Of a stretch of 52,917 nt of DNA, positions 348 to 33,400 are shown one piece after another (within the stretch, counting starts at the first letter, position 1; every line of letters starts with the position of its first letter). The position numbers were made by a program, and so were the translations under genes. The notes beneath the pieces are model-generated. The model was not told the DNA's origin. It saw only the letters and a program-made list of their open reading frames with translations, and did not search any database. The stretch covers positions 1 through 52,917 of the forward strand of contig JAFNSO010000104.1 in the NCBI GenBank assembly GCA_017384945.1. Reading direction: 5' to 3'. This stretch comes from Ruminococcus sp. GTDB taxonomy: Bacteria; Bacillota; Clostridia; Oscillospirales; Acutalibacteraceae.

Positions 348-375
348 TTGCTTTTTTCTTCATTTATGGTATACT
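348..375 (+). promoter_or_regulatory. Promoter of the cobalamin operon
   Basis: -35 TTGCTT (348-353), 16-base spacer, -10 TATACT (370-375). It stands immediately upstream of the riboswitch and is divergent from the tRNA-Gln promoter. Confidence 0.65.
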
Positions 376-391
376 GTAATCAACTGAATAT

Positions 392-550
392 CACTTGCGC
401 GGTTTCGCGAGAATCAATAGGGAAGGCGGTGAAAGTCCGCCGCAACAGCCATTACCGTGTTCAGCCGAAAAGAAGCATTATGTCACTGATATGTATCGGG
501 AAGGCGCTTTTTACTATGACTGTAAGTCGGGAGACCTGCCGCGCTCGTAT
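392..550 (+). promoter_or_regulatory. Cobalamin (B12) riboswitch
   Basis: The conserved landmarks of the adenosylcobalamin riboswitch occur in order: GGGAA followed by GGCGGTGAAAGTCCGCCGC (about 420-442), AACAGCC (444-450), and the B12 box with AGTCGGGAGACCTGCC (525-540). The 5' GCGCGG (about 397-402) can pair with CCGCGC after the B12 box to close the aptamer. A terminator hairpin follows at 594-624, so control is most likely by transcription termination when B12 is plentiful. It places the downstream surface proteins and transporter in B12 uptake. Confidence 0.93.
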
Positions 551-593
551 TTTGCTGTTTTCCTTGGGCACATGGAGGAGGAACAGTTTTTTG

Positions 594-624
594 AAGTGCC
601 CTTCTTTTTCGGGGCGCTTTTTTT
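594..624 (+). terminator. Riboswitch expression-platform terminator
   Basis: The stem AAGTGCCC (594-601) pairs with GGGCGCTT (612-619), one pair being G-T, and is followed by a run of T to 624. It lies between the aptamer and the ribosome site GGAGG (625-629) of the first gene, which is the usual place for a riboswitch-controlled terminator. Confidence 0.8.
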
Positions 625-637
625 GGAGGTTTTTTTA

Positions 638-2014
638 ATGAAAAAGATTATGGCAATTCTATTGTCGGCGCTGCTTATCGTCTCGGTGTTCACCATTGCG
701 GTCAGCGCGCAGTCAAACACCGTCTCTGTACGTATCGAGGGTGTGAATGAGAACTTTTATTACGGCGACGTTCCTCTCGGCGAGGATGACACGGTAATGA
801 GTATTCTCAACCGTATCGACGCGGACAACGAGTCGATTACCGTCGTAAGCGAAAAAAGCTCCTACGACGGCAGTGACTACGTAACCGCCATTAACGGCGA
901 GAAGGCGGCGACCTTCGGCGGCTACGACGGCTGGCAGTACGCGGTCAACAATGTTTACGCCGAAGTCGGAATGGGCTCTTACAAGCCCTCCGCGGGGGAT
1001 AAAATCGTAATTCTCTACGGAGACTATCCCTGCGCTCTGCCCGTAGCGGACTTTTCAAAGGCGAATGAGGGCGTGATTTCCTTTGCAAGCGAGAACACAA
1101 ACTGGGTTCCAGATGAAAACGGAAACTACAATCCCGTTACGACGGTCGATCCTGTCAGTGACGCCGATGTTTTCCTTAATGGCGAGAAGTTTACAACCGA
1201 CAAGGACGGAAAAATCAGCTTCAACGCATCTGAGTTTAAGGGCTTTGTAAACGTTCAAATCAGCAGATACTCAAAGTCAGGCGCGCCGAGCGTTTGCAGA
1301 TACGCTCCCGATTACGGCTTTGAGATGAAGGGAGCCACAACAGACGAGAGCACTCCCGAGGAAACTACCGCTCCCGTTACGGTTCCCGAGACCACTCAGG
1401 CAACCGAGCCTACAACGTCTCCCGCGACCGAGCCCACAACGGCTCCCGCAACCGAGCCCACAACAGCTCCCGCGACCGAGCCGACGACGGCTCCCGCGAC
1501 CGAGCCGACGACGGCTCCCGCGACTGAGCCTACAACGTCTCCCGCGACCGACGCTGTTAAGGTTACAACCGTTTCGCTTCCTTCGGCAAAGACGCTTTAC
1601 GTTCAGGGTACATATACGATTTCCGCCAATGCCATCAATAACCCTGTCGGAAAGACGAACTACTCTTCGTCGAATCCTAAGGTGGTTTCCGTTATCGGCG
1701 GCAAGCTCACCGCTCTCAAAAAAGGAACCGCGAATATCACCGTTACGAACAACAATATTAAGGGTACAATGACCGTTACGGTCAAGAATCCCAAGCTCAA
1801 TAAAAAGAGCGTTACCCTTAAGCTGAAAAAAGGCAAGAAAACCTTTAAAATCAAGGTGAAGGGTCAGGTCGGAAAGCTTTCCTTCAAGTCCTCGAAGAAA
1901 AAGGTCGCGAAGGTCAGCTCAAAGGGCGTTGTGACCGCTAAGAAGAAGGGCAAGGCTGTCATCACCGTAAGTACGAACGGTATGAAATTAAAGCTGAACG
2001 TCAAGGTAAAATAA
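638..2014 (+). CDS. Secreted DUF4430 (transcobalamin-beta-like) protein with Ig-like C-terminus
   Basis: First gene after the B12 riboswitch. The start at 638 has GGAGG 8 bases upstream; an in-frame extension to 395 would run through the riboswitch and is rejected. The 458-residue product has a signal peptide (1-24), then a DUF4430 domain (about 28-130) with the signature GWQYAVNN (98-105) and a GDKIVILYG strand. This fold is that of the C-terminal cobalamin-binding domain of transcobalamin and intrinsic factor. A second beta domain follows (about 135-235), then a Thr/Pro linker made of 8-residue repeats, then two bacterial Ig-like (BIG2) modules; the last is very Lys-rich. No LPXTG motif or C-terminal membrane segment is present, so wall association through the cationic module is inferred. 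The likely role is capturing corrinoid outside the cell for the ECF importer. Confidence 0.82.
   Translation: MKKIMAILLSALLIVSVFTIAVSAQSNTVSVRIEGVNENFYYGDVPLGEDDTVMSILNRIDADNESITVVSEKSSYDGSDYVTAINGEKAATFGGYDGWQYAVNNVYAEVGMGSYKPSAGDKIVILYGDYPCALPVADFSKANEGVISFASENTNWVPDENGNYNPVTTVDPVSDADVFLNGEKFTTDKDGKISFNASEFKGFVNVQISRYSKSGAPSVCRYAPDYGFEMKGATTDESTPEETTAPVTVPETTQATEPTTSPATEPTTAPATEPTTAPATEPTTAPATEPTTAPATEPTTSPATDAVKVTTVSLPSAKTLYVQGTYTISANAINNPVGKTNYSSSNPKVVSVIGGKLTALKKGTANITVTNNNIKGTMTVTVKNPKLNKKSVTLKLKKGKKTFKIKVKGQVGKLSFKSSKKKVAKVSSKGVVTAKKKGKAVITVSTNGMKLKLNVKVK
1400..1543 (+). repeat. Six 24-bp tandem repeats coding a Thr/Pro linker
   Basis: Six in-frame 24-base units encode ATEPTTxP. They vary mainly at third codon positions, so the repeat is selected at protein level but is still prone to copy-number change by slippage. 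Confidence 0.9.
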
Positions 2015-2032
2015 TTAAATCAGAGGTGCGTT

Positions 2033-3448
2033 ATGAAAACCTGTAAAACCGTAATTTGTGTGTTGATTTGTTCTTTAATAGCCGTAAGTGCGTCTTTTAC
2101 GGGGTTTAACGCCGAAGCTGTCTCCCTCGACAACGTCAAAAGCGCTGTTGAGGGAGTAATCTCGTATAAATGCGGTCAGGCGAACGCTCAAAGCGTTGAT
2201 GGTCTGCTCGACTCATTGGGGTCAACGGCGGGGGAGTTTTCCGCCGACTGGTATATCATCGCGCTCTCGCTTTACGGGGTGGACTGCCGTAATTCAAGGG
2301 CTGTGTCCTGTCTGAAAAACAAGGTGAGAGAGTATTACCGCGACGGCATTTCCGCCGTGAAGGTGACCGATTTGCAAAGAACGGCTTTTGCTCTTATGGC
2401 TTGCGGCGAGAATATAAGAAATATTGAGGGTCGCAATCTGCTCGCGGACTGCACATATAACCGCGCCGAGAAAAAGTCACTCGACGCGCAGGGGGTTAAC
2501 TCCGTTGCTTACGCGCTTTTGCTGCTCGATTCGGACGATTTCCAAATCCCCGAGAAGGCGTCGACCACCCGCGACGATATGATCAACATGATACTCGACA
2601 AGGAGCTTGAGGGCGGAGGCTTTGCGCTGTTCGGTTCCTCGGCGGATGTTGATGTGACCGCGATCGTTTTGCAGGCGCTCGCTCCGTACAGGAGTCATGA
2701 GAAGGCTTCAAAGGCGATTGATCGCGCGGTTTCGATCCTTTCGGTAAGACAAAGCTCAGACGGCGCGTACAAATCCTTTTCAAACAAGCCGAGCGCCGAA
2801 AGCACCGCTCAGGTCGCGCTGGCTCTGTGCGCGAACGGAATCAATCCGATTTCCGACGGAAGATTTGTAAAGGAAGGTAACTCCGTAATGGACGGCCTGA
2901 TGTCCTTTAAGCTCGATAACGGGGCGTTCAGCCATTTCAGAGACGGTGAGTCTGATAACATAGCGACATATCAGAGCCTTTGCGCGCTTGTAGGCTGTTA
3001 CAGATTTATGAGCGGCAGCAAGTATTTTTACGACTTTAAAGGTAAAAGCTATGAAAAAACCTCGGAGCTAAACAAGGTAATCTCAAAAAAGAAAAAGACT
3101 GTTTCAAAAGCTTCGACTACATCAAAGACAAAAACCAAGAAAAATAAACAATCAGCGGTCAAAGCGACAGAAGAAACTCAAGCCGCGACTGTTCTGAAAT
3201 CATCCGCGCATCATTCAACAAAAATCACTTTTTCAAAAAACGTCAAGGCTAAGAAAAAGGCAAAGAACCCAAAGAAGGCAACTGTCACAGCGACATCGGA
3301 CGAGACCTCGCAAGCGTCTGTCTCGGCAAAGAAAAGCTCAGTACCCGATAATACAGAAAAAGGTGAAAGCGCTTTGTATATACCGTTCGCGCTTATCTTT
3401 CTCGGTTATCCTGTTTTGGTTGTGATTCTCCGCAGGAGGAAAAAGTGA
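2033..3448 (+). CDS. Membrane-anchored alpha/alpha-barrel protein (transcobalamin-alpha-like)
   Basis: The 471-residue exported protein has a signal peptide (about 1-28), then roughly 320 residues of helical repeats of the prenyltransferase/squalene-oxidase type. Repeats show the pattern DLQRTAFALMACG, NSVAYALLLL, DVDVTAIVLQALAPY, ESTAQVALALCANG and NIATYQSLCALVGCY. That alpha/alpha barrel is the fold of the N-terminal domain of transcobalamin and intrinsic factor. A Lys/Ser/Thr-rich stalk (about 345-440) leads to a C-terminal membrane helix ending RRRKK, so the barrel should be displayed outside and tethered. It overlaps the next gene by GTGA and lies between two DUF4430 genes under a B12 riboswitch. 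A role as the alpha half of a two-part cobalamin binder is inferred; no corrinoid-contact residues were verified. Confidence 0.8.
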   Translation: MKTCKTVICVLICSLIAVSASFTGFNAEAVSLDNVKSAVEGVISYKCGQANAQSVDGLLDSLGSTAGEFSADWYIIALSLYGVDCRNSRAVSCLKNKVREYYRDGISAVKVTDLQRTAFALMACGENIRNIEGRNLLADCTYNRAEKKSLDAQGVNSVAYALLLLDSDDFQIPEKASTTRDDMINMILDKELEGGGFALFGSSADVDVTAIVLQALAPYRSHEKASKAIDRAVSILSVRQSSDGAYKSFSNKPSAESTAQVALALCANGINPISDGRFVKEGNSVMDGLMSFKLDNGAFSHFRDGESDNIATYQSLCALVGCYRFMSGSKYFYDFKGKSYEKTSELNKVISKKKKTVSKASTTSKTKTKKNKQSAVKATEETQAATVLKSSAHHSTKITFSKNVKAKKKAKNPKKATVTATSDETSQASVSAKKSSVPDNTEKGESALYIPFALIFLGYPVLVVILRRRKK

Positions 3449-3939
3449 AACGGTTTTCAGCGCTTGTAATTCTCGCGGTTATTCTGATCGGCGGCTGTTC
3501 CGTAAAAAGCGCGGAGGAGTACTACGGCGAGACGAATGCCGAGACAGGCTTAAGGGTTAAAATTTCAATCAACTGCGAGAACGCGGTAAAATATTTGAAG
3601 GACAATAAGAGGGTAAACCCCGATATTCTGAAGGACTGCGAGGTCGGCTTCAAAAAAGGGGAGACCGTCTTTGACGCACTCAAAACCGCGTGCAAGGAAA
3701 ATAAAATTCAGTTTGAATACAACGGAAGCTCAGAATCCGTTTACATAAAAGGAATAGATTATTTGTATGAGTTCGACTGCGGAGAGCTCTCGGGCTGGGA
3801 GTATTCGGTCAACGGAGAATTCCCCTCGGTCGGCTGCAACGCTGTAAGGCTCAACGACGGCGACGAGATAAAATGGCTTTATACCTGCGACCTCGGAGCC
3901 GATATCGGAAATGTTTTTAAGGCAACACCGCACAATTAG
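3445..3939 (+). CDS. DUF4430 lipoprotein (transcobalamin-beta-like)
   Basis: The GTG start at 3445 has AGGAGG at 3434-3439 and overlaps the stop of the preceding gene. The product has 164 residues with a lipobox LIGGC, so Cys18 should be lipidated. The mature part is essentially one DUF4430 domain (about 37-150) with the signature GWEYSVNG (117-124) and DGDEIKWLY, the same pattern as the first gene of the operon. The last six codons and the stop are supplied by the terminal repeat of the inserted element at 3921-4081. Without that element the frame would end FKENR, with its stop overlapping the ecfT start. The domain is complete, so the protein is probably still functional. It is likely the membrane-proximal corrinoid-binding partner of the S component. 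Confidence 0.82.
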   Translation: MKRFSALVILAVILIGGCSVKSAEEYYGETNAETGLRVKISINCENAVKYLKDNKRVNPDILKDCEVGFKKGETVFDALKTACKENKIQFEYNGSSESVYIKGIDYLYEFDCGELSGWEYSVNGEFPSVGCNAVRLNDGDEIKWLYTCDLGADIGNVFKATPHN

Positions 3940-4081
3940 CGGCGTACGCCTTGCTTGAATATTATTCCGTCAGACTGTCCAAAAATCGGCGTCCATACGT
4001 CAGTGTGCACACCGATTATTTGTACACCCTGACGAAAAATTTTACTGCGCAATCCGCACACCTTAATTATGCGGTATTGCC
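3921..4081. mobile_element. 161-bp MITE-like element with TTAA duplication
   Basis: Terminal inverted repeats of 18 bases (3921-3938 and 4064-4081) match at 16 positions. TTAA occurs on both sides (3917-3920 and 4082-4085), consistent with a target-site duplication. Nested inner inverted repeats (CGTCAG 3968/CTGACG 4029; AATCGG 3984/CCGATT 4012) let the whole element fold as one long hairpin. It has no coding capacity. Removing it with one TTAA restores a shorter reading frame whose TGA overlaps the ATG of ecfT, like the other tight junctions in this operon. The transposase that moved it is not in the window. Confidence 0.85.
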
Positions 4082-4094
4082 TTAAGGAAAACCG

Positions 4095-4949
4095 ATGAAT
4101 ACATTCAGAAATCTGCACCCGGTGACGCTGCTCCTTTACTTTTCGTTTGTGACGGTGTTCTCGGTGTTCAACTTCAATCCCGTATACCTATGCTTTTCAC
4201 TTTTGGGAGCGGCGCTTTATTTCGCCTCGGTGAAGGGCGTTTTTGTTATGCTCAAAAGTATGGCGGGATATTTTATTATGCTTTTGGCTGTTGCCGCGCT
4301 GAACCCGCTGTTTTCTCACAACGGTGCTACGGCGCTCTTTTTTATAAATGATAACCGCGTTACGCTTGAGGCGTTTTGCTTCGGCGCCGCGCTCGGACTG
4401 GCGATAGCGTCGGCTTTGTGCTGGTTTTCGTGCATCGGAGAGGTTTTTGACAGCGAGAAGCTGCTATATCTTTTCGGGAGGGCTTCGCCGAAGCTCGCGG
4501 CAGTGATTTCCCTGTCCCTGAGACTGGTGCCAGGGATTTTTAAAAGCTTTAAGGAAATACACTCGGCTCAGTCGTCCTTTTCCTCAAATCAGGGAAGAGT
4601 AAGACGGTTTTTGAGCTCGTTTTCGGCTGTTATTACACAGAGCCTTGAAAACTCGATAATCACGGCGGACAGTATGAACGCGAGGGGCTTTGCTCTTAAA
4701 AAGCGAACCCGTTTCTCTCGGTTTCGATTTACGGCTTATGACGCTGGATTCTCGGCGTTTTTTGTATTGCTCGGGACTTTTATTTGTGTCGGATGGTTCT
4801 CTTTTGAGTTTTATCCTGTTATTTCAATCGGGAGGCTTAACGCGCTAAATATTATGAGCGTTGTTTTATTCGCGGTGATGTCGCTTACGCCGTTTGCCTA
4901 TGAGGTTAAGGAGGGTGTGAAATGGAAGATTTCTCTATCAAAAATCTGA
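4095..4949 (+). CDS. ecfT: ECF transporter transmembrane component EcfT (CbiQ family)
   Basis: The 284-residue integral membrane protein is the T component of an energy-coupling-factor transporter, linking the vitamin-binding S component to the ATPases. It shows several hydrophobic segments in the N-terminal half and the family signature ADSMNARGF (191-199), whose Ala-Arg-Gly inserts into the ATPase groove. SLRLVPG lies in the preceding coupling-helix region. The start ATG at 4095 uses AAGG at 4084-4087, which overlaps the TTAA copy of the inserted element. It overlaps the ATPase gene by 28 bases, implying coupled translation. Confidence 0.88.
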   Translation: MNTFRNLHPVTLLLYFSFVTVFSVFNFNPVYLCFSLLGAALYFASVKGVFVMLKSMAGYFIMLLAVAALNPLFSHNGATALFFINDNRVTLEAFCFGAALGLAIASALCWFSCIGEVFDSEKLLYLFGRASPKLAAVISLSLRLVPGIFKSFKEIHSAQSSFSSNQGRVRRFLSSFSAVITQSLENSIITADSMNARGFALKKRTRFSRFRFTAYDAGFSAFFVLLGTFICVGWFSFEFYPVISIGRLNALNIMSVVLFAVMSLTPFAYEVKEGVKWKISLSKI

Positions 4950-6502
4950 GCTTTAAGTACCCGGACCGCGAACGCTTTGCGCTCTCAAATATTAATCTCG
5001 GAATAAAAAAGGGCGAGTTTTTGCTTGTTATCGGTGAATCTGGAAGCGGAAAAACGACCCTGCTCAGAATGTTAAAAAACGAGCTCAGACCAAAGGGTGA
5101 GATCGACGGCGGGATACTTTTCCTAGGAAATAATCTTTTTGAATTGAAAGCGCTCGACAGCGCGCCAAAAATCGGCTTCATAACGCAGGAGCCCGAGGCT
5201 CAGCTTGTCAGCGACAGGGTGTACGGCGAGCTTGCCTTCGGACTTGAAAACCTTGGACTCGACAGGGAGATCATAAGAGCGAGAGTAGGGGAGTTCGCCT
5301 CGTATTTCGGGCTTGTAAAGGAGTTTACAAAACCGACCGCCAACCTTTCGGGCGGACAGAAGCAGCTGTTGAATCTCGCTTCCGTTATGGCGATGAATCC
5401 CGAGGTTATAATCCTTGACGAGCCGACCTCCCAGCTTGACCCGATTGCTGCCGTGGAGTTTCTCGACGCTCTGAAAAGGCTCAACGACGATTTGGGCGTT
5501 ACGGTCATAATCGCCGAGCATCACCTTGAAAATGCTTTTAAGCTCGCCGACAGGGTTGCTTATCTCGAGGACGGAAGGCTTTTCTGCTGTGAGGCTCCCG
5601 AAGGTCTTGCCCTTTTATTGAAGGATAAAAGGATTTCTCAGACCCTTCCTGTCAGCTCGAGGGTTTATCAGTATCTTGATTCGGACGGAAAATGCCCCCT
5701 GACCGTGAAAGAGGGCAGAGGGATGCTTGAAAAGTATGAAAATGAGCATTATATTTCTATAAAAGAATTAATAAATAATGAGGAAATAATCTCCTGCAAA
5801 GACATTTGGTTTCGATATGAGAAAAAGGGAGAGGATGTCCTAAGAAGCTGTTCGCTCGGCGTTCGCAGGGGTGAGTTCTACGCTCTCGCGGGAGAGAACG
5901 GAAGCGGTAAATCGACAATTCTAAAGCTTATTTTCGGCGCTTTGAAGCCGTACAGAGGAAGGCTCAGAAGAAGGAGCGAATCGCTCGCTTACCTGCCGCA
6001 GAATCCTAAGAATCTGTTTGTAAAGGACAGCGTTGAGGAGGATTTTAAGAGTGTAAATAATTCTTATCTGGAATTATGTGAAAGCTTTGGCATTGAAAAG
6101 CTGCTCAGCGCGCATCCTTATGATCTGAGCGGCGGTGAGCTTGAAAGAGCCGCGATTTGCAAGCTTCTGCTGCTTTCTCCCGAGGTCTTGCTGCTCGACG
6201 AGCCGACAAAGGGACTTGATTCCTTCGCAAAAAATGAGCTCGGCATGTTTTTGCGCGAGAGAATCAAAGAAGGACTCACAGTCATCTGCGTTACTCACGA
6301 CCTTGACTTCGCGGCGAATTTCGCTGACAGGTGCGGACTGCTTTTTGACGGCGGAATTATATGCGAGAATGATTGCAATACATTTTTCTCCGGGAACAGC
6401 TTTTACACAACCGCTTCATCAAGGCTGACAAAGGGGATTTTTAAAAACGCGGTAACATATGATGATATTCTCGAATGTATCAAGGCGGGTGAAGGAAAAT
6501 GA
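4922..6502 (+). CDS. ecfA: Fused two-domain ECF ATPase (EcfA-EcfA')
   Basis: The 526-residue protein has two complete ABC ATPase halves in one chain. Half 1 has Walker A GESGSGKT (38-45), Q-loop Gln89, LSGGQ (142-146) and Walker B VIILDEP (162-168). Half 2 has Walker A GENGSGKS (324-331), LSGGE (402-406) and VLLLDEP (422-428). All catalytic motifs are intact. In ECF systems the pair powers the EcfT-S complex at the cytoplasmic membrane. Because the cluster has its own S component and riboswitch, this is likely a dedicated (group I) cobalamin importer rather than the shared module. It overlaps the S-component gene by 4 bases (ATGA). Confidence 0.92.
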   Translation: MEDFSIKNLSFKYPDRERFALSNINLGIKKGEFLLVIGESGSGKTTLLRMLKNELRPKGEIDGGILFLGNNLFELKALDSAPKIGFITQEPEAQLVSDRVYGELAFGLENLGLDREIIRARVGEFASYFGLVKEFTKPTANLSGGQKQLLNLASVMAMNPEVIILDEPTSQLDPIAAVEFLDALKRLNDDLGVTVIIAEHHLENAFKLADRVAYLEDGRLFCCEAPEGLALLLKDKRISQTLPVSSRVYQYLDSDGKCPLTVKEGRGMLEKYENEHYISIKELINNEEIISCKDIWFRYEKKGEDVLRSCSLGVRRGEFYALAGENGSGKSTILKLIFGALKPYRGRLRRRSESLAYLPQNPKNLFVKDSVEEDFKSVNNSYLELCESFGIEKLLSAHPYDLSGGELERAAICKLLLLSPEVLLLDEPTKGLDSFAKNELGMFLRERIKEGLTVICVTHDLDFAANFADRCGLLFDGGIICENDCNTFFSGNSFYTTASSRLTKGIFKNAVTYDDILECIKAGEGK

Positions 6503-7167
6503 GAAAGCTTTTGATTCTTATTATTCCGCTTTTGATAATTCCCGCGGTCGTTGTTGCGGGGTATATTATCGGAAGAAACTCCTACGCGTTTGTTTCGGCG
6601 CTTGTCGTTCTTCTCGGCTGTGTTCCGTTCTTTCTCGCGTTTGAGGACGGGAATAACTCGGGCAGGAGAGTGGTCACCCTTGCGGTTATGACGGCTCTGT
6701 CCGTCGCGGGGAGATTTATCTTCGCTCCGATCCCGTTTTTTAAGCCTGTGACCGCTATGGTGATTATTTCGGCGATGTACTTCGGCTCAGGGTTCGGTTT
6801 TCTGACGGGAGCTTTGTCGGCTTTGATTTCAAACTTCTACTTCGGTCAGGGTCCGTGGACGCCGTTTCAGATGTTCGCGTGGGGCTTGATCGGCTTTCTC
6901 GCGGGACTGCTTTCCGATCCGTTGAAGCGAAGTAAGCTTGTTTTGATTTTGTACGCCGTTTTTTCGGGCTTTTTGTATTCGGTTATACTCGACACATGGA
7001 CTACGCTCTGGGCTGATTCGGGTTTTAATCTTACGCGTTTTCTCGCGTTGACGGCGACCTCTTTTCCGATTACGGTTGTGTATATCGTGTCAAATGTTGT
7101 CTTTCTTCTGATATTTACGCCGCTGTTTTCAAAAAAGCTCGACAGAATTATAAAAAAATACGGATAA
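6499..7167 (+). CDS. ECF transporter S component, probably cobalamin-specific
   Basis: The 222-residue protein is almost wholly hydrophobic, with about six membrane segments, the usual size of an S component. The central stretch with PFFKPVTAMVIISAMYFG and ALISNFYFGQGPWTPFQM resembles the CblT/CbrT-type cobalamin S components of Firmicutes as I recall them. Substrate assignment rests mainly on the riboswitch and the transcobalamin-like partners. It is the last gene of the operon and is followed by a weak terminator at 7173-7207. Confidence 0.85.
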   Translation: MRKLLILIIPLLIIPAVVVAGYIIGRNSYAFVSALVVLLGCVPFFLAFEDGNNSGRRVVTLAVMTALSVAGRFIFAPIPFFKPVTAMVIISAMYFGSGFGFLTGALSALISNFYFGQGPWTPFQMFAWGLIGFLAGLLSDPLKRSKLVLILYAVFSGFLYSVILDTWTTLWADSGFNLTRFLALTATSFPITVVYIVSNVVFLLIFTPLFSKKLDRIIKKYG

Positions 7168-7325: not shown

Positions 7326-9635
7326 ATGAAAAAGCTGATATCTGTATTTCTTTCGCTGATAATCTTCGCGGGCGTGGTTACCTCGCTGCCGCTTGTTTCT
7401 TTTGCGGCTAAAAAGAAGGTAAGCCTTAAAAAGTCCTCAGTCACCCTTAAAATCTCCGACAAAAAGGGAAAGACAATATACGGTACGACCGCGATTAAGT
7501 TGAAAAAAGCAAAGGGCGTATCCGTAAAAAAGGTGACTTACAAAAGCTCGGACAAAAAGACAGCCGCCGTTTCCTCAAAGGGAAAGGTTGTCGCCAAGAA
7601 AAAGGGCTCGGCTAAGATCAAAGTTACGGTCAAGTATAAATTCAAAAAGAAAACCTATACCCAAAGGCTTAGCTTTAAGGTGACGGTCAAGGACGTAAGA
7701 AAAACGGCTCCTTTGTCCAAATCTACAGAGCCGCCGACTGCAAAACCGACAGAGCCGACTACCGATCCCGCGACCAATCCGGCGACAGAGCCTGCGACAA
7801 ATCCCGCGACCGAGCCCGACACTCAGCCTTCGACACAAAAGGAGGAGCCTGTCGTATTGAATCCCGCGGGTTATCCTCAGCTTATTATTTCTACCTATAA
7901 AGGCGATACAAGCAAGCTTTTGAACTCTCCCGAATACGGAGCCAGCTTCAGACTGTCGCCGTCATACCGTTTGCAGTGCGTTTCAACATTTCACTGGAAT
8001 TCAGGCAGGGGAGCCGAGCCCGGTGAGATATGGATAGAGGAAGCCTTTGGCGGACCGAAATACGGACCGTACAAGGCGGTCGGAAGAACGCTCAACGGAG
8101 TTGAAAACGCGATATGGGATATTTTTCCCGAGGACCTTGTTGTTAAGGATGATACATCATACAAGATTATTGATTCCGACGAGGCTACGCTGAGCTGCTA
8201 CAAGGACAAGGGCCCGATATTCGAGCTTCGCGGTTACGAGATTTCCGCCCAAAACAAAAGCGGGCTTGAAGCAAAAGAAGTCTTTGACGGCGGAGCCGCG
8301 GCTCCCGCAAAGGGCAGGGTAGAGTACGGCGAAGCCGCGCTTGATTTCGACGCGGACGGCGACGGCGACGTGCTTCTGCTCGACGATAAAAGCAAAGTTG
8401 AACATGACAATCAAAGCGCCAAGGTTTACGACGTTATCACAAACAGCAATTGTGAGGCTCCTGTGCGTGTTTCTCTTGACGCTCCCGAGCCTGCCGAGGG
8501 CGAAAAATGCTTTATACAGGTCGGACTCCCGATAAAGGACGATTTTGATAAAGAGGATACTCTTTGGGTTGACGTTGCGGCTGATTGGAAGGACGGCAAA
8601 GCGGCAGCCGAGATCAATCTCTCTCAGATAGAGGATCAAATCGGAGCCATAGAGTTTAACACGGGCAACGGGCTTACTCAGAATATGCGTAAGGCAGCCG
8701 AAACCGCTTTGGCGTTTTCCGGCAGCATTCCGAACAGCATTATCGACATGCTAAACGGCATCGACGACGGCGTAAATGTGACTGTTGATTCTCTTGACAA
8801 GGGAGTCAAGGCAATCAAGGTCTGTCTCGGAATAACTAAGGTTTATACCTCCGATCACTTTATGCTTTGTGTTCCCAAATCAATCGAATCGCTTAGTGAA
8901 AGAGGAGCTAATGAGCTTTTGAAGGATATGGAGACTATTCTCACCGACTATATGAAGGAGTATGATATCCACCGTAAAAAATGGCCTATGATGGTAAATG
9001 TAGGCACAATGATGCCTCTTATTGAGGGCGGCGACGCGCTGTTTGCTATGCCTTTGTTGTCAATCAACGGGCGTTTTGGAAGCAATCAGACAGGAATAAA
9101 TAACAGCTATATCAAGATAGACAAGGAAATACTGTCCTACGGCGACTACAAAAGGCTGGGCGAGCAGTACGATGACAGCTCAGGCTATCTGTTCTGCACA
9201 TTGGCTCACGAGCTTTTCCACTTTGTACAGCGCAATTACGTTTCTCAGGCGAGAACAAGCCGCTGGATGGACGAGAGCACCGCTACGTACGTCGGCAATT
9301 CGTGGCAGGAGAGAATCGGGATAAAGAAGTACAACGACGAAAATTATCTCCGCGAGAGTCGTATGCAGTTCGATATGCTCAGAAAGACCCTCAGCTTCAA
9401 AAAGACGGATAAGATGGATCCCGACTACATCAGCGCCCAGCTTATAGAGTTCCTTGTCAAGTACGACAGTCATTTCTTAAGAAAGCTCTACGAGGCGATG
9501 CGCGACAACAGCATTTTCAGCTCGTGGGAGACCTTGATTGAAAAAGCGGCAGGCGCGACGATGAAGGAGCTCGCCGTTAAGTATTACGGAGCCTTATCGG
9601 GAGGAGGGCTCTTTGCTCAGAATTATGAGGGCTGA
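7326..9635 (+). CDS. Secreted HExxH metalloprotease-like protein, interrupted by in-frame TGA
   Basis: The start at 7326 has AAAGGACG just upstream. The 769-residue product has a signal peptide (about 1-27), a Lys-rich BIG2-like Ig module (about 28-130), a Thr/Pro linker (about 135-175) and a large domain. Near its end is HELFH (628-632) followed by WMDESTA with Glu650, giving HExxH-x17-E. This is close to the HExxH-x18-E zinc site of gluzincin peptidases, so a zinc peptidase is likely, but I cannot name the family. The TGA at 9633-9635 is followed in the same frame by 291 more open codons to 10508 (stop at 10511). The native protein was therefore probably about 1061 residues. The peptidase site lies before the break and could still act. 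Confidence 0.75.
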   Translation: MKKLISVFLSLIIFAGVVTSLPLVSFAAKKKVSLKKSSVTLKISDKKGKTIYGTTAIKLKKAKGVSVKKVTYKSSDKKTAAVSSKGKVVAKKKGSAKIKVTVKYKFKKKTYTQRLSFKVTVKDVRKTAPLSKSTEPPTAKPTEPTTDPATNPATEPATNPATEPDTQPSTQKEEPVVLNPAGYPQLIISTYKGDTSKLLNSPEYGASFRLSPSYRLQCVSTFHWNSGRGAEPGEIWIEEAFGGPKYGPYKAVGRTLNGVENAIWDIFPEDLVVKDDTSYKIIDSDEATLSCYKDKGPIFELRGYEISAQNKSGLEAKEVFDGGAAAPAKGRVEYGEAALDFDADGDGDVLLLDDKSKVEHDNQSAKVYDVITNSNCEAPVRVSLDAPEPAEGEKCFIQVGLPIKDDFDKEDTLWVDVAADWKDGKAAAEINLSQIEDQIGAIEFNTGNGLTQNMRKAAETALAFSGSIPNSIIDMLNGIDDGVNVTVDSLDKGVKAIKVCLGITKVYTSDHFMLCVPKSIESLSERGANELLKDMETILTDYMKEYDIHRKKWPMMVNVGTMMPLIEGGDALFAMPLLSINGRFGSNQTGINNSYIKIDKEILSYGDYKRLGEQYDDSSGYLFCTLAHELFHFVQRNYVSQARTSRWMDESTATYVGNSWQERIGIKKYNDENYLRESRMQFDMLRKTLSFKKTDKMDPDYISAQLIEFLVKYDSHFLRKLYEAMRDNSIFSSWETLIEKAAGATMKELAVKYYGALSGGGLFAQNYEG

Positions 9636-21356: not shown

Positions 21357-21481
21357 TCACCTAAAAGAGTATGTGCAATTTGCATAAATTAGCATTATAA
21401 AATTCGTACAAGAAATCAAAGGAAAAAACAAGCCGATTATGATAAAATAAAGGTACCATACTTTAAAAGAGGTGTATGAAA

Positions 21482-24400
21482 ATGAAACAAATACGAAAAT
21501 CGGTAGCGCTGTTTCTCGCGGCGCTGATGCTTTTGAGCGTTTTTGCCGTTTTGCCTGTCAGCGCGGCTGAGTCGGCGGCGGTTTCACTCGGCGGCAATAT
21601 AATCACAGAGGATAGGTTTGTTTATTCGATATCGGAGGGCGAAGCCACGGTTGCAGAGTTTCGCAAGCCCAGCTCATTTTATAACTCGGCTGAGATTCCC
21701 GAATCGGTTCAGGGCTATCCCGTTACAGCTCTCGGTCAGGGCTTATTCAAAAACAATACCGACCTGAATTATGTTACGATTCCCGCGGGCGTAAAGAAAA
21801 TCGGAAGCTCCGCCTTTGAGGGAATGACATCTTTAAGCAGGCTGTTTTTTTCCGATAAGAGGAGCGTCTGGAGAAAAATTCAGATAGATTCCGGCAACGA
21901 TCTGATTACAACAAACACCGACAACCTGATTGTCTATACATTCGGGGATATTTTGTACAGATATTACAGCAGTCCGGCCCAGCTTTCGGTTTACGCTGTT
22001 AAAGAGGGCGCGTATGATCTTGTCATCCCCGAGAGCATCGAAAGCGTTGACGTGACTACGATTTCCTCGGATGTGTTCACCGACAAGACCTTCGATTCGG
22101 TTACGATTCCCGACTCGGTAAGATACATCCACTGGGGAGCGTTCAGAAACGCTAACGTAAAGAGCGTAGTTCTCGGAAGCGGGGTTACTAAGCTTTCGGG
22201 CAACGCCTTTAGCGGCAATATCGAAAACATATACTATAACGGACTTTCGGAGGATTGGGAAAAGGTAACCAAGGAAGCTCCGAACGATTGGCTTTCAAAG
22301 GTCAGTGTGCATATGCTTCCCGTGCCGGGAACGAGGGATGTGAACAATAACTTTACGTCAAAAAATGTAAAATACAACTGGACGCCCGACGGCACGCTCA
22401 AAATCGTCGACTATACGGGCAACGGTGACGACTATGACAGGATTTTTTACGTAGCGGCGGGTTACACTCTAAGCGAGATAGGCGAGTACGCCTTTATGAA
22501 CTCTAATTTGACGAGAATTACAATTCCCAAGGGCATAATTGTGGCGAACTCGGCCTTTTATCACTCTTACTCACTTGAAAGCGTGACGGTCAAAAGCGCC
22601 GAAATCGGCAATTCGGCTTTTGCGGGCTGTACTTCGCTGAAACGTATTTCACTCGAAAACACTGTTTCTATAGGAAGCTACGCGTTCAGCCAGAACAAGG
22701 CGGAGAGCGTTAAGCTCCCGGAAACCGTCAGTTACGTCGGAGAGTGCGCCTTCAAGGACAGCTCCGAGCTCTTGGAGGTCGTAATCCAAAGGGGAGAAAT
22801 CGCTCAAAAAGCGTTTTACAACTGTCAAAATCTCAATACTTTGAAGCTCGGTGACAGAGTAAGCTCAATCGGCGCGGAGGCGTTTCTTAACACCGATTTG
22901 TCCGAAATCGAGCTTTCAAGACACGTTGAAACAATAGGCGACCACGCCTTGGGCTACACCTATGAGGGAGGATCCTACGTCAAGAGGCCGTATTTCACCA
23001 TAAGCGGCTGGAACCCGAGCGCTGCGAAGGCATACGCCGACGCGAACGGCTTTTCTTTCAATGAATTGGGGACTGTTATAACTTCCGTTTCGATAGTCGA
23101 TTTTATCGAGCCCGACGCGGGAGAAGCTCCGAACACAAAGGGATACAGCGAGGAAAATACTTACACCGTTATGAGCAGAGATTGGTACAACGACACCGAG
23201 AAACACTGGATGACTGACGGCGAGAAGTTTGTCGGAGGAAACTACTACACAGTTTATTTCCATTTGGAGCCTTTATATTTTAGTTACTTCTCCGACCCGA
23301 TGCAAAGCGCGACAATAAACGGAAAGCCTGCCCAAATTTCCTATACTCCCGAATTGGATCGCGAGGAGAATGTAAACGTCAGCAAAACGTATTACTGCAA
23401 GCCCGAGGAAGTCATTTCCGATATAAGTATTTCTGTTGATACTCCCAAAATGGATATGAAAAAGTCAGAAGCCGTCCCCGCGATAGTTGACACCGAGGGC
23501 GTTGAGATCGCCGATTATAAATGGGAGAAGAAAAGCGGTACCGAGACCGACGATTCGTTGTTCAATTACAACTGTAAGTATTTGCTGACCGTGTATTTCC
23601 ACGCTAAGGACGGATGGCGGTTCTCTTATATCAAGGACTCGAACAATTTAAACATAATCGGAACCTATCAGGTAATGGTTCATCTGAATGACAAATCAAA
23701 CAAGGGATATAAATGGGACGACAGGGAAAAAAGCTATTATATGTGCGCCGAATTTGAGTTTCCCGTCAGATGGACTCCCGACGATCCTTCAAAGTATATC
23801 GAAGAGGTGCGTATAGACAACGCGAAGGAGCCGATTGTCGGCGAAGCCTTCGAGAATTATAAGTTCAGCACCGATAAATACGACGTTGAGGTTGTTTGGA
23901 GGCATTTCGATTCCGGTAATTTCAGCTTAATGGAGGAGGGCGAAAGGTTTATAAAGGGTAATAAATACATCTGCTACTTTAACCTTTACACGAAAAACGG
24001 CTATGGCTTCCGTATTGATGAAAACGGCTATCAGGACTTCAAGGGCTATGTTAACGGCAGAGAGGCAAAAACAAACGGAACGTGGGGCGAGTATGATAAG
24101 GCGTATGTTTATGACGTGTACGGACCTCTTACGGGAGACGAAACTCAGCCTCCCACAGTCGCGACCACCGCGCCCGTTACGGACAAGCCGACAGAAACCG
24201 TTAAGCCGACCGAGACGATTACAAAGGCGACCGACCCGACGGAATCCGAAACCGCCGCTCCCGTAACAACCGAGTCCGCAGAACCGACGACAGCTCAGAA
24301 TACAACCGCCGCTCAGACCGAAAAGCCGACCGAGTCTCAGACAACCGAGTCGACCGACCCGACTGAGACGTCAACAGCCGCTCAGACCGAAAAGCCGACC

Positions 24401-25171
24401 GCCGCTCAGCCGACAACAGTTGAGCCTGCGGCCGAGCCGACGACAGCTCAGCCCGCAACAACTGTCCCCGCGACGGAAACTCAGCCCTCGACCCAAGCGC
24501 CGACGCAAATCCCGACGGCTCCCGCGATAAGCTCGCTCAGCGGCGACGCGGACAAAACGCAGGTCGATACCTTCGTAAAAGCACTCAAAACCGACAGCGA
24601 CCCCAAGGGCAGCGTATTCTTCCTGCTTGCGGCAAAGGCGAAGAAGGTAAGCAAAAGCTCGGTTACTCTTTCGTGGAATAAGGTCAAGGGCGCGAAGAGC
24701 TATGTGATTTACGGCAATAAATGCGGCGTAAAGAACAGGTATAATTACATCGCGACCGTATCAAAAACCTCCTTCGTGCAGAAGAAACTCAGTAAGGGTA
24801 CCTATTATAAATATCTGATTATGGCGTTTGACGGCAGTGACAAGCTCATTACAGCCTCAAAGACGCTGCACATCTCCACAAAGGGCGGCAAAACAGGAAA
24901 CTACAAAAAGCTCACAACCGCCGCCAAAGGCGACAAGGTCATTCTCGCTAAGAAGGGCAAGAGCTTTAAGCTGAAAGCAAAGGCTGTCCCCGAGAATAAA
25001 AAGCTCAAGGTTAAGCAGCACAGGAAAATCAGCTACGAGAGCTCCGACACAAAAATCGCCAAGGTCAGCAAGAGCGGCAAAATAACAGCCAAAAAGAAGG
25101 GCGTTTGCTATGTCTACGCCTACGCCCAGAGCGGAGCCTTTAAGAAGATAAAGGTAAAAGTAAAAAAATAA
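21482..25171 (+). CDS. Large secreted BspA-type LRR surface protein
   Basis: I choose the second ATG (21482) because GAGG at 21469-21472 is 9 bases from it and only 3 from the ATG at 21476. The 1229-residue product has a signal peptide (about 1-28) and two blocks of BspA-like leucine-rich repeats (LRR_5), with units such as LNYVTIPAGVKKIGSSAFEGM. Three copies of an unnamed roughly 100-residue beta domain follow (starting near SIVDFIEPDAGEAP, DISISVDTPKMD and EEVRIDNAKEPIVGE). After these come a long Thr/Pro/Glu linker, a fibronectin-III-like domain (SSVTLSWNKVKGAKSYVIYG) and a Lys-rich BIG2 module. There is no LPXTG. Adhesion or matrix binding is likely but inferred. It is a paralogue of the protein at 30405-34001. 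Confidence 0.85.
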   Translation: MKQIRKSVALFLAALMLLSVFAVLPVSAAESAAVSLGGNIITEDRFVYSISEGEATVAEFRKPSSFYNSAEIPESVQGYPVTALGQGLFKNNTDLNYVTIPAGVKKIGSSAFEGMTSLSRLFFSDKRSVWRKIQIDSGNDLITTNTDNLIVYTFGDILYRYYSSPAQLSVYAVKEGAYDLVIPESIESVDVTTISSDVFTDKTFDSVTIPDSVRYIHWGAFRNANVKSVVLGSGVTKLSGNAFSGNIENIYYNGLSEDWEKVTKEAPNDWLSKVSVHMLPVPGTRDVNNNFTSKNVKYNWTPDGTLKIVDYTGNGDDYDRIFYVAAGYTLSEIGEYAFMNSNLTRITIPKGIIVANSAFYHSYSLESVTVKSAEIGNSAFAGCTSLKRISLENTVSIGSYAFSQNKAESVKLPETVSYVGECAFKDSSELLEVVIQRGEIAQKAFYNCQNLNTLKLGDRVSSIGAEAFLNTDLSEIELSRHVETIGDHALGYTYEGGSYVKRPYFTISGWNPSAAKAYADANGFSFNELGTVITSVSIVDFIEPDAGEAPNTKGYSEENTYTVMSRDWYNDTEKHWMTDGEKFVGGNYYTVYFHLEPLYFSYFSDPMQSATINGKPAQISYTPELDREENVNVSKTYYCKPEEVISDISISVDTPKMDMKKSEAVPAIVDTEGVEIADYKWEKKSGTETDDSLFNYNCKYLLTVYFHAKDGWRFSYIKDSNNLNIIGTYQVMVHLNDKSNKGYKWDDREKSYYMCAEFEFPVRWTPDDPSKYIEEVRIDNAKEPIVGEAFENYKFSTDKYDVEVVWRHFDSGNFSLMEEGERFIKGNKYICYFNLYTKNGYGFRIDENGYQDFKGYVNGREAKTNGTWGEYDKAYVYDVYGPLTGDETQPPTVATTAPVTDKPTETVKPTETITKATDPTESETAAPVTTESAEPTTAQNTTAAQTEKPTESQTTESTDPTETSTAAQTEKPTAAQPTTVEPAAEPTTAQPATTVPATETQPSTQAPTQIPTAPAISSLSGDADKTQVDTFVKALKTDSDPKGSVFFLLAAKAKKVSKSSVTLSWNKVKGAKSYVIYGNKCGVKNRYNYIATVSKTSFVQKKLSKGTYYKYLIMAFDGSDKLITASKTLHISTKGGKTGNYKKLTTAAKGDKVILAKKGKSFKLKAKAVPENKKLKVKQHRKISYESSDTKIAKVSKSGKITAKKKGVCYVYAYAQSGAFKKIKVKVKK

Positions 25172-30404: not shown

Positions 30405-33400
30405 ATGTCATCAATCAAAAAAACGGTGAGTATTGTACTCGCGCTTCTTATGCTCGCGAGCGTGTTTTGCGTCGCGCCTGTTTCTGTTTTCGCGGCGGGA
30501 AGCGTTGTGACGGGTACCGTGGGTAACTGCAAATACGAGTACGACACCGACGCTCAGAGCCTTCGTATCTACGGCGGCACAACTGTTGAGTCCGATAAAT
30601 CGGGCGATTTACCGTGGAACAACAGCAGCTCCGACGATTACAAAAGAATCAAAACCGTCACGATAGACGAGGGCGTAAATAATATCGGCAGCAGTGTATT
30701 TAAGGAATTTAAAAGCCTGACTAAGGTTTCGCTGCCCTCGACATTATTGACCCTGGGTACCTTTTCATTCTATTCGTGTTATTCTCTTAAATACATCACT
30801 CTGCCGAGCAAGCTTGTGAAGATCGACGCGCGCGCGTTCGGTAATTGCGGGGATCTCAGGCAAATCAATATTCCGAAAAGCGTCAAAAATATCGAAAGCG
30901 GAGCTTTCGCGGGCTGCAATGCGCTGACAATGGCTTATATCGCCGACGGTATCAACGCCGAAATCGGAGCCGAAGTCTTTCTGGGCTCGGGCTTGAAATC
31001 CGTTTACATCCCCGAGGGCGTCAAAAAAATCGGCGAGCACGCCTTTGGTTATACATATTCTTCATCCAAGTATTACCGCGTTGACGGCTTCAAGATAATC
31101 ACGGTTAAGGGCTCTGTTGCGGACGCTTACGCCGATACGAACGGTTTTTCCGTTGAGCGCGTCACGCTGATTCCGACTGTTGAAATCACCGATATCGACA
31201 CACCGATAGTTGACAAAAACCCCGATATGACCTTAAACTCTCCGCAGAAATCGCTTTTCAGCTCGAGTGTTTTTTGGCTCAACGTTACTACTGACCAGAA
31301 CGTTTCCGCCGAGGACTTTTTCGAGGAAGGAAACAATTACTCCGTCACCTTTGTTCTGACGGCAAAGAGCGGCTACAGATTCGTTCAGGACGGCGTTGAC
31401 CCGTGCTTTAACGCTACGATAAACGGCGAAGCCGTGAAGGCTAAAAACAACTCTTTTGACCCCGGCGAGGTCGCAAGCGTCGCGTACGAGTTTCCGAGAG
31501 TTTCCGCTAAATATATCAATACCGTTGTTTTTCAGGGCGTTGAGACTCCGCAGATAGGAAAACATCCCGATTTTGACTTTGCTACCACCTCGAAAGGCTT
31601 TACCGCGAAGGATAATTCGGTCTTGTGGTACAATGAGACGGATAAAAAGTATCTCAAAAAGACCGACACCTTCATCGCCAACAAGCAGTATTCAGCGCGT
31701 TTTGATCTGACCGCCGACGACGGCTACAGATTTACGGTAAAGGACGGAGCGCCTACCGTAAAAGCAAGCGTTAACAGAATTAACGCCGATGTCCGCGCTT
31801 TCCAAGGGAAAAACCCCGCCCGGAATATCCTCGTCGTATACACCTACCCGATGCTTACGGCGAATAAGGTTGTCTCTCATATTGACCTTATGGATCTGGT
31901 TGAGCCCGCGGTAGGGGAAAGCCCTTCCTTCGATTTGCCCGTATCGCTTTCTTCCGGAGCAACGGTTTACAAAATCGAGTGGAAAGAGAGCTACGACTAC
32001 GTCGAAGCCACAGATACCTTTGACTACGGCAAGACCTACAGCGTCATAGTCTATCTGGAAATCAATTCGGGCTTTGAGTTCGCTTCAAACGACGGCAAAA
32101 CACCTGCCGTTACCGCGACGGTTAACGGAAAAGACGCGGAGGTCTTTAACGCGTCTTTCTCGGGACTGTATAAGCTCGGCGTAAAAATGGAGTACACAAC
32201 ACCTAAGCTTATTGAGAATGTTGAAATCACGGACATTGTCGAGCCCGTCGCGGGCGAAAACCCGAGGTATACGGCGACCGCGTCCGAGAACGCAAAAGTC
32301 GTTGAAGTGATGTGGGAGGGCTCGGACGGACTTATGACGGAATCCGACGTCTTTGAGGAGGACGAGGACTATATTTGCGTTGTCATTGTATGCGGCGTTT
32401 CAGGCTTTGTTGTCGACGCGGATAAAACCTCGGTTTCAATCGGAGGCAGTTCTGTAAATCCAAGCTATTTCGGCGAGAACGCAATGGAGATTAATTGTTT
32501 GTTTACCGCCAAGCCCGCCCCGACCGAGCCGACCGAGGAAACCCAGCCCGACACGGACGAGCCGACTGAGGAAACCCAGCCCGACACGGACGAACCGACT
32601 GAGGAAACCCAGCCCGACACGGATGAGCCGACTGAGGAAACCCAGCCCGACACCATTGAACCCCAAAATATCAACGAGATACATATTGATGACGTTGTCG
32701 AGCCTGTTGACGGCAAGCATCCCGTTTTCACCGTGTCCGCCCATCCTCACGTTAAGGTTACCAAGGTTGAATGGTTCAATAATTATGAAGACATGCCCAT
32801 AGAGGAGTCGGATATCTTTGCTGTTGGCAGTGAATATGAGATTCGCGTTTCCTTAGAGACTGATGAGGGATTTGTATTTGACTCCTCGGTACCGGTTACA
32901 ATCAATGGTGCTCCTGTGAGTATTGAGAGCAGTACAGAAAATACTCTGACCGCGTATACATATTTTTACGCTGTACCCGAGCAGTCCGAAACAGAGGAGA
33001 CTTATGAACCGACAGATCCGCATAGTATGACCCAAACCTTCTATTATCTGCCGAGCGCTGAGCAGGAGGCGAAGAATTGCAGGTACGCGATCAGGGTTGT
33101 TCTTCCCGAACTCGAACACGACGATATGATTCTTGATATGATTCCATCGGGCAAGCAGGTGGACGGAGTTAACGTTTACAAAACGGAGGTTTACTCGCAC
33201 GACGAGGTTTTAAATGTGGAATTCAGAGTGTATGACGGTGAAACACTGTTTAACGCGCTTGCGTTTCCCGGTGAACTTGTTCAGGATCGGATTGTAACCA
33301 GTGAAGGTTCGGCTATTGACCTTGAAAATGCAACCGCCGAGCCCTCGACGATCGCGCCGCGTCCGACCGAGCCCGGGTACACCGAACCTTCCACCAAGGT

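Follow-up and report, generated by a model that had tools for sequence, protein, structure and literature searches.

A cobalamin riboswitch, three exported proteins and an ECF importer

We analysed a stretch of 52,917 nt from Ruminococcus sp. (assembly GCA_017384945.1, contig JAFNSO010000104.1, positions 1-52,917, forward strand; hereafter the window), whose first 7.2 kb hold six tightly spaced genes on the + strand with a cobalamin riboswitch ahead of them. In order, these encode three exported-type proteins, here called A, B and C, followed by the EcfT, fused EcfA-A' and EcfS parts of an energy-coupling factor (ECF) transporter:

383-557, + strand: cobalamin riboswitch aptamer (RF00174, 93.1 bits, model positions 1-189)
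593-620, + strand: terminator-like stem and U run, possible riboswitch expression platform (fold of 590-626)
638-2014, + strand: gene A, exported DUF4430 protein with a Thr/Pro linker and a Big_2/Lys-rich tail, wall-side (PF14478, E 2e-14; PF02368, E 4.9e-9; surface modules in relatives)
2033-3448, + strand: gene B, exported alpha/alpha toroid with a Lys-rich linker and a C-terminal membrane helix (PF13243, 8.4e-4, and PF00432, 3.4e-4, both below cut-off; hydropathy)
3445-3939, + strand: gene C, DUF4430 lipoprotein, the membrane-side beta half (PF14478, E 8.8e-21; lipobox)
4095-4949, + strand: EcfT (CbiQ-type), membrane coupling protein (PF02361, E 2.9e-6)
4922-6502, + strand: EcfA and EcfA' fused in one chain (two PF00005 stretches, E 2.3e-50; TIGR04520, E 2.3e-90, below its curated cut-off)
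6499-7167, + strand: EcfS, an S component like CbrT but with ~51 extra N-terminal residues forming a predicted helix pair (6FNP, E 4e-9 alone, 1.3e-19 with a profile)

Genes overlap by 4 bases (B/C), 28 bases (EcfT/EcfA-A') and 4 bases (EcfA-A'/EcfS), and the largest intergenic gap, between C and EcfT, is 155 bases. The score of the riboswitch match compares with a gathering score of 31.5, and no second cobalamin riboswitch was found in the source assembly (2.08 Mb, 106 contigs, 89% complete). Together with the Pfam matches and the export-type N-termini, this bears out an earlier note on this DNA, which had read the locus as a vitamin B12 riboswitch heading three exported proteins and a complete ECF transporter. 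Between the aptamer and the first start codon, the stem running into a U run had a predicted folding energy of -14.9 kcal/mol (z -3.3), and 2 of 200 shuffled sequences folded as well as positions 590-626. This stem was absent from the 20 terminator-like sites returned by a pattern scan; it would fit control by attenuation.

The closest structure to EcfS in the Protein Data Bank (PDB) was 6FNP, with an E-value of 4e-9 for the single sequence and 1.3e-19 for a profile of 18 relatives (next match, 1.3e-4). This entry is the ECF-CbrT complex of Lactobacillus delbrueckii, described as carrying cobalamin and cobinamide (PMC5997447), and its chain A is probably CbrT, judged by length and homology. 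Other vitamins were considered as the substrate, given a riboflavin-type Pfam match over cut-off and a sub-threshold folate-family match in NCBIfam, and rejected in view of the closest structure and the cobalamin riboswitch. The CbrT-like S component and the riboswitch make corrinoid uptake the likely function, and the operon as a whole is very likely an uptake system for corrinoids (vitamin B12 type), as the earlier note had proposed. It shares with ECF-CbrT a homologous S component, EcfT and two EcfA domains, but has its own ECF genes, fused ATPases, ~51 additional N-terminal residues on the S component and dedicated extracellular proteins. The 6FNP match starts at profile position 52, leaving the first 51 residues of EcfS without a counterpart there. 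This segment (window 6499-6651) contains two hydrophobic stretches, residues 6-24 and 30-48, which are also present in relatives, and the resulting helix pair could possibly be a docking site for C. Here and below, membrane helices, lipoboxes and sortase- and dockerin-like tails were called by simple rules of our own making, with a helix threshold of 1.7 for the window's proteins and their relatives and 1.6 for the S-component loci, which include the fused chains.

The source genome contains one B12-binding domain, in an 815-residue frame that is probably MetH, and CbiD, the single synthesis gene sought, was not found in this 89% complete assembly, which is a thin indication of an organism that uses B12 and does not make it. 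The cargo might also be mainly a B12 precursor or analogue, such as cobinamide or other cobamides, a possibility that would be compatible with the capture mechanism proposed below and that gains from the reported transport of cobinamide by ECF-CbrT (PMC5997447). The missing CbiD speaks against it but, as the search covered this gene and not the late cobinamide-finishing ones, is little evidence either way; we regard a precursor cargo as possible, on the doubtful side.

Toroid and DUF4430 proteins, separate and fused

Proteins A and C each contain a DUF4430 domain (PF14478) above cut-off, and no other match to this family was detected in the assembly. A combines it with a signal-peptide-like start, a Big_2 domain and the motif GWQYAVNN, C with a lipobox at Cys18 and the motif GWEYSVNG, so that both signatures on which the earlier note had based its two exported DUF4430 proteins were recovered along with the domains. 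Among 61 proteins that end in DUF4430, 19 carried a lipobox by our rule, and lipidation of C is therefore not a general feature. When a profile of 33 DUF4430 domains was compared to 177,635 distinct PDB sequences, the first four of seven matches were transcobalamin-2, all of them weak (E 0.015 to 0.25). Animal cobalamin carriers are described as ending in a DUF4430 domain (PMC4350170), and the two observations support the assignment of DUF4430 as a transcobalamin-type beta domain. The operon and the animal carriers intrinsic factor and transcobalamin each have toroid and DUF4430 parts, yet the animal proteins are encoded by one gene as one soluble chain, whereas the window has two genes, a toroid tethered to the cell and a link to a transporter.

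Protein B has a signal-peptide-like start and ends in a hydrophobic helix (residues 448-466) followed by RRRKK. Its toroid matched SQHop_cyclase_C (PF13243) and Prenyltrans (PF00432) below their cut-offs, and the corresponding profile retrieved squalene-hopene cyclases best from the PDB (E 2.4e-15), together with alpha-2-macroglobulin, complement-type domains and prenyltransferases. Taken at face value, the cyclase matches would suggest an enzyme of isoprenoid chemistry that sits in the operon by chance. The catalytic motif of class II terpene (squalene-type) cyclases is DxDD, or DxDDTA in its longer form, and DxDDTA was retained in none of 92 toroids, so a cyclase was rejected. As B is moreover exported, fused to DUF4430 in relatives and located behind a cobalamin riboswitch, we consider any such enzyme highly improbable. 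An alignment of 32 toroids contained no stretch that was conserved enough, and a scan of the sequence collection seeded with the toroid alone returned no relative; the S component worked as a seed. Toroid and DUF4430 domains were also seen, among other parts, in very large exported-type proteins of 1674 to 2613 residues (L138:1-5025, L057:8847-16685 and L062:2397-9953; L numbers are our locus labels).

In relatives, the two parts occur in one chain. We counted 35 chains with the order toroid-DUF4430. In 33 of them, exactly two membrane helices were predicted in the stretch that separates the domains, mostly connected by a short basic loop (long in L068). One of the other two had a single helix by the rule used, and one had none (L138, 1674 residues). 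A hairpin of two helices between the domains places both the toroid and DUF4430 outside by predicted topology, and it is what one would expect from joining the C-terminal helix of B to the N-terminal signal segment of C. The split pair thus matches a natural fusion, which supports a clamp made of B and C, and we consider this clamp likely. The earlier note's claim that the halves are made as separate proteins holds up as well, now with relatives in which they form one chain. In a tree of 74 S components, 32 came from loci with joined and 42 from loci with separate parts, a locus being scored as separate when the toroid and the C-type DUF4430 lie on two chains. At least six changes of state were required, two of them forced by well-supported branches; the tree was a quick one in which 37 of 71 inner branches were weak. 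The window falls in a well-supported set of eight, all of which are separate. We take the repeated joining of the same two parts as the strongest sign that B acts together with a DUF4430 domain. The counted chains include near-copies, for example L048/L050 and, from one contig, L058/L093; counts are therefore not numbers of independent events.

The opposite fusion, DUF4430-toroid, was found in eight chains, five of them with sortase-like tails by our motif rule. These chains would fit a functional clamp formed by A and B at the wall, with C acting merely as an adaptor for the S component. Fusions of the C type are commoner, however, with 35 chains in the toroid-then-beta order of the animal carriers, and in the window B carries a membrane tether and its gene shares 4 bases with that of C. 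We therefore regard a clamp of A and B as unlikely and retain B and C as the probable pair.

As to the location of A, the relatives of this protein carry exchangeable surface modules. Dockerin_1 was over cut-off in four A-type proteins (L063, L067, L068 and L058), another ends in Big_2 like the A of the window (L065), and sortase-like tails were called in 5 of 31, while 10 of 31 had no recognised anchor. An A-type DUF4430 protein with three S-layer homology (SLH) stretches was seen in Lysinibacillus alkalisoli (L123:3349-5070). These dockerin, SLH and sortase-like modules support a place for A on the wall side, in line with the earlier description of A as a wall-type protein. Across all DUF4430 and toroid proteins, dockerin type I domains over cut-off were observed at L063:633-1562, L067:4383-5429, L068:4188-5126, L058:7670-8635, L040:8491-10533 and L044:3975-4388, which suggests that cellulosome-type scaffolds carry some of the capture proteins.

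Conservation of the layout across Bacillota

We searched a sample of 200 genomes of the family, the source genome included, and detected the toroid in 54, DUF4430 in 150 and the cobalamin riboswitch in 126 (120 over cut-off; the filters of this search lose weak matches). Co-location was mapped for 68 toroid matches, 149 riboswitch matches and the best 150 DUF4430 matches, the latter from 118 genomes, so that counts involving DUF4430 are lower bounds. At least 65 of the 149 riboswitches were followed by a DUF4430 match on the same strand within 8 kb; among the matches listed, DUF4430 preceded the riboswitch in none and lay on the opposite strand in two. Similarly, at least 55 of the 68 toroids had a DUF4430 match on the same strand within 6 kb and, among the matches listed, none on the opposite strand. 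A riboswitch was located within 8 kb upstream of 37 of the 68 toroids and downstream of none. These strand-sided counts led us to reject a chance neighbourhood of riboswitch, toroid and DUF4430. The set contains two other genomes of the same genus, one of which (G185) has the whole layout.

The rest of the operon was examined in 30 stretches, namely the window and 29 larger ones, the best-scoring of the 67 other toroid matches; several of them end at contig ends. DUF4430 was present in 29 of these stretches, EcfT in 25, EcfA-type ATPases in 23 and EcfS in 20. Starting from the S component instead, we inspected the best 80 of at least 597 loci; 57 of these have a toroid and a DUF4430 gene sharing one strand, and in three of the 57 (L088, L116 and L125) the two lie behind the S component. 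Where at least 5.5 kb of upstream sequence was available, both parts were present in 55 of 66 loci. A strict B12-box pattern, for which the plus strand was scanned, was found in 16 of the 80 loci. Named carriers include Ruminococcus bicirculans 80/3, Kurthia sibirica, Viridibacillus soli, Lysinibacillus alkalisoli and Siminovitchia thermophila.

A proposed two-piece corrinoid clamp and its alternatives

With moderate confidence, we interpret the locus as a riboswitch-controlled corrinoid acquisition operon in which B and C form a two-piece clamp that feeds the CbrT-like S component. On the outside of the membrane, the tethered toroid of B and the DUF4430 domain of lipoprotein C would jointly enclose the corrinoid, much as the two domains of intrinsic factor or transcobalamin do in a single chain. 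From C, or from the pair in its closed form, the corrinoid would move on to the S component, with import powered by the operon's own ECF module. A, in the wall or surface layer, would most likely capture corrinoid further out or serve as another clamp partner of B. Closure of the clamp, binding by A, B and C, the hand-over and the relay are steps that we infer; the relay from wall to membrane, also suggested in the earlier note, is possible. Two halves need not be joined to hold cobalamin: the cleaved fragments of human intrinsic factor still bind it tightly as IF30-Cbl-IF20 (PMC6257451).

Several observations weigh against this interpretation. CbrT is described as functioning in Lactobacillus with the S component as its substrate-binding protein (PMC5997447). 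The match between the DUF4430 profile and transcobalamin was weak, and neither A nor C alone matched a transcobalamin in the PDB. As for the toroid, PF01122, the animal alpha domain, was over cut-off in none of the 200 family genomes, the source genome had no match at all, and the weak matches elsewhere lay away from the toroid places. Among 32 toroids, two matched PF01122 weakly (best E 0.0018). Transcobalamin was also absent from the PDB matches of the toroid profile (E up to 1) and from those of a profile of whole fused chains containing both domains (E up to 10). The window's toroid is thus outside PF01122 by score, unlike the animal alpha domain. Given the generic profile matches, the count for PF01122 and the absence of transcobalamin from the lists, we refrain from describing B as an alpha domain of the transcobalamin type; as far as its sequence goes, it appears to be related to that domain by fold class only and to be of the generic squalene-cyclase/prenyltransferase type. 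The earlier note had described the third protein as an alpha-domain-like barrel with a C-terminal tether, of which the toroid and the helix at residues 448-466 stand, while the specific likeness to the transcobalamin alpha domain is not borne out by sequence. Furthermore, of the 66 S-component loci with sufficient upstream sequence, three had DUF4430 only and eight had neither part, and one genome of the same genus, rated 100% complete (G074), had one DUF4430 match but no toroid and no riboswitch match. Finally, DUF4430-S pairs without a toroid exist, showing that the toroid is not always needed, which makes it somewhat less likely that the clamp is required in general.

Such minimal loci were seen among 12 hand-picked ones around short DUF4430 matches behind riboswitches. 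In nine of the 12, the DUF4430 gene was followed by a lone S component (~170-180 aa), with neither toroid nor EcfT. Six of these S components (L144, L146, L148, L150, L152 and L153) matched the window-based S profile, and the other three (L145, L149 and L151) matched a profile of those six with E 4.6e-36 or better; for one of the nine, 6FNP was the sole PDB match (E 0.014). DUF4430 was re-checked with Pfam in four of the nine (L144, L146, L148 and L151). No S component was seen in two small loci (L143 and L147), and in the last (L154) a toroid lies ahead of the contig end. DUF4430 and the S component may therefore be the core of the system, to which the toroid was added for tighter capture. 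The nine loci also favour a model that has no clamp at all, in which each DUF4430 domain binds corrinoid alone and C feeds the S component, the toroid serving some other purpose, such as removing corrinoids from other binders or keeping C close to the transporter. The existence of 35 toroid-DUF4430 and eight DUF4430-toroid chains, the proximity of at least 55 of 68 toroids to DUF4430 and the layout of the animal carriers, a toroid plus a beta-grasp domain (PMC1796856), all argue for a joint action of the two parts, and we judge independent binding to be rather improbable, though it deserves consideration. The B-C clamp accordingly remains our preferred reading for the window.

Parts of this picture have been anticipated. 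Exported bacterial beta-grasp proteins resembling transcobalamin, a clade of the SLBB superfamily, were described by Burroughs et al. (2007; PMC1796856), along with toroid fusions on either side and paired paralogues. They reported operons with CbiO- and CbiQ-like genes in hosts that usually lack key enzymes of B12 synthesis, proposed B12 scavenging and suggested that animals had obtained the fused form from Gram-positive bacteria (PMC1796856). The window shares with this clade the exported beta-grasp proteins, a toroid partner, a second paralogue, the CbiO/CbiQ operon, a Gram-positive host and the proposed role in B12 scavenging, but its toroid is a separate, membrane-tethered protein (PMC1796856). 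We did not meet the cobalamin riboswitch, the CbrT-like S component, the two-helix hairpin or the exchangeable modules of A in the parts of that account consulted, and the word riboswitch does not occur in its main text (PMC1796856). The general idea was thus predicted in 2007, and the split design, the membrane hairpin of the relatives and the wall-side third protein are added details. In the literature searched by titles and abstract starts, which leaves most subscription journals uncovered, we found no experimental study of a bacterial DUF4430 system of this kind. Surface capture of B12 for an importer is also described for BtuG and BtuH of Bacteroides, BtuG being a beta-propeller that works with BtuB (PMC6143338, PMC8941943, PMC6977713); in contrast, no beta-propeller domain was present in the Pfam lists of the six operon proteins.

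ECF vitamin importers are generally held to bind their cargo with the S component itself. More tentatively, many Bacillota might use a dedicated three-station corrinoid relay, consisting of DUF4430 proteins on the wall, S-layer or cellulosome, a two-piece, intrinsic-factor-like clamp at the membrane and a CbrT-type S component with a helix pair as docking site; animal intrinsic factor would then descend from a clamp of this kind, as a fused and released form. If the interpretation is correct, the 2007 proposal of a Gram-positive origin of the animal carriers becomes directly testable, and ECF transport gains extracellular capture proteins. One survey reported relatives of known transporters in nearly half of the genomes whose pathway variant was auxotrophic and named the search for the rest an open problem (PMC6593275); operons of the type described here, if they work as proposed, may fill part of this gap in B12 uptake by B12-requiring gut bacteria.

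Beyond the operon, the window contains further exported-type proteins at 7326-9635, 21476-25171 and 30405-34001, whose Lys-rich stretches and Thr/Pro-rich linkers resemble those of protein A, perhaps a common style of surface attachment in this genome. Upstream of the riboswitch, a tRNA-Gln gene lies on the minus strand at 214-288. A 23-base repeat (91% identical) at 24-46 and 205-227 comprises a T-run and the 3' end of this tRNA gene and is perhaps the remnant of a second tRNA copy.

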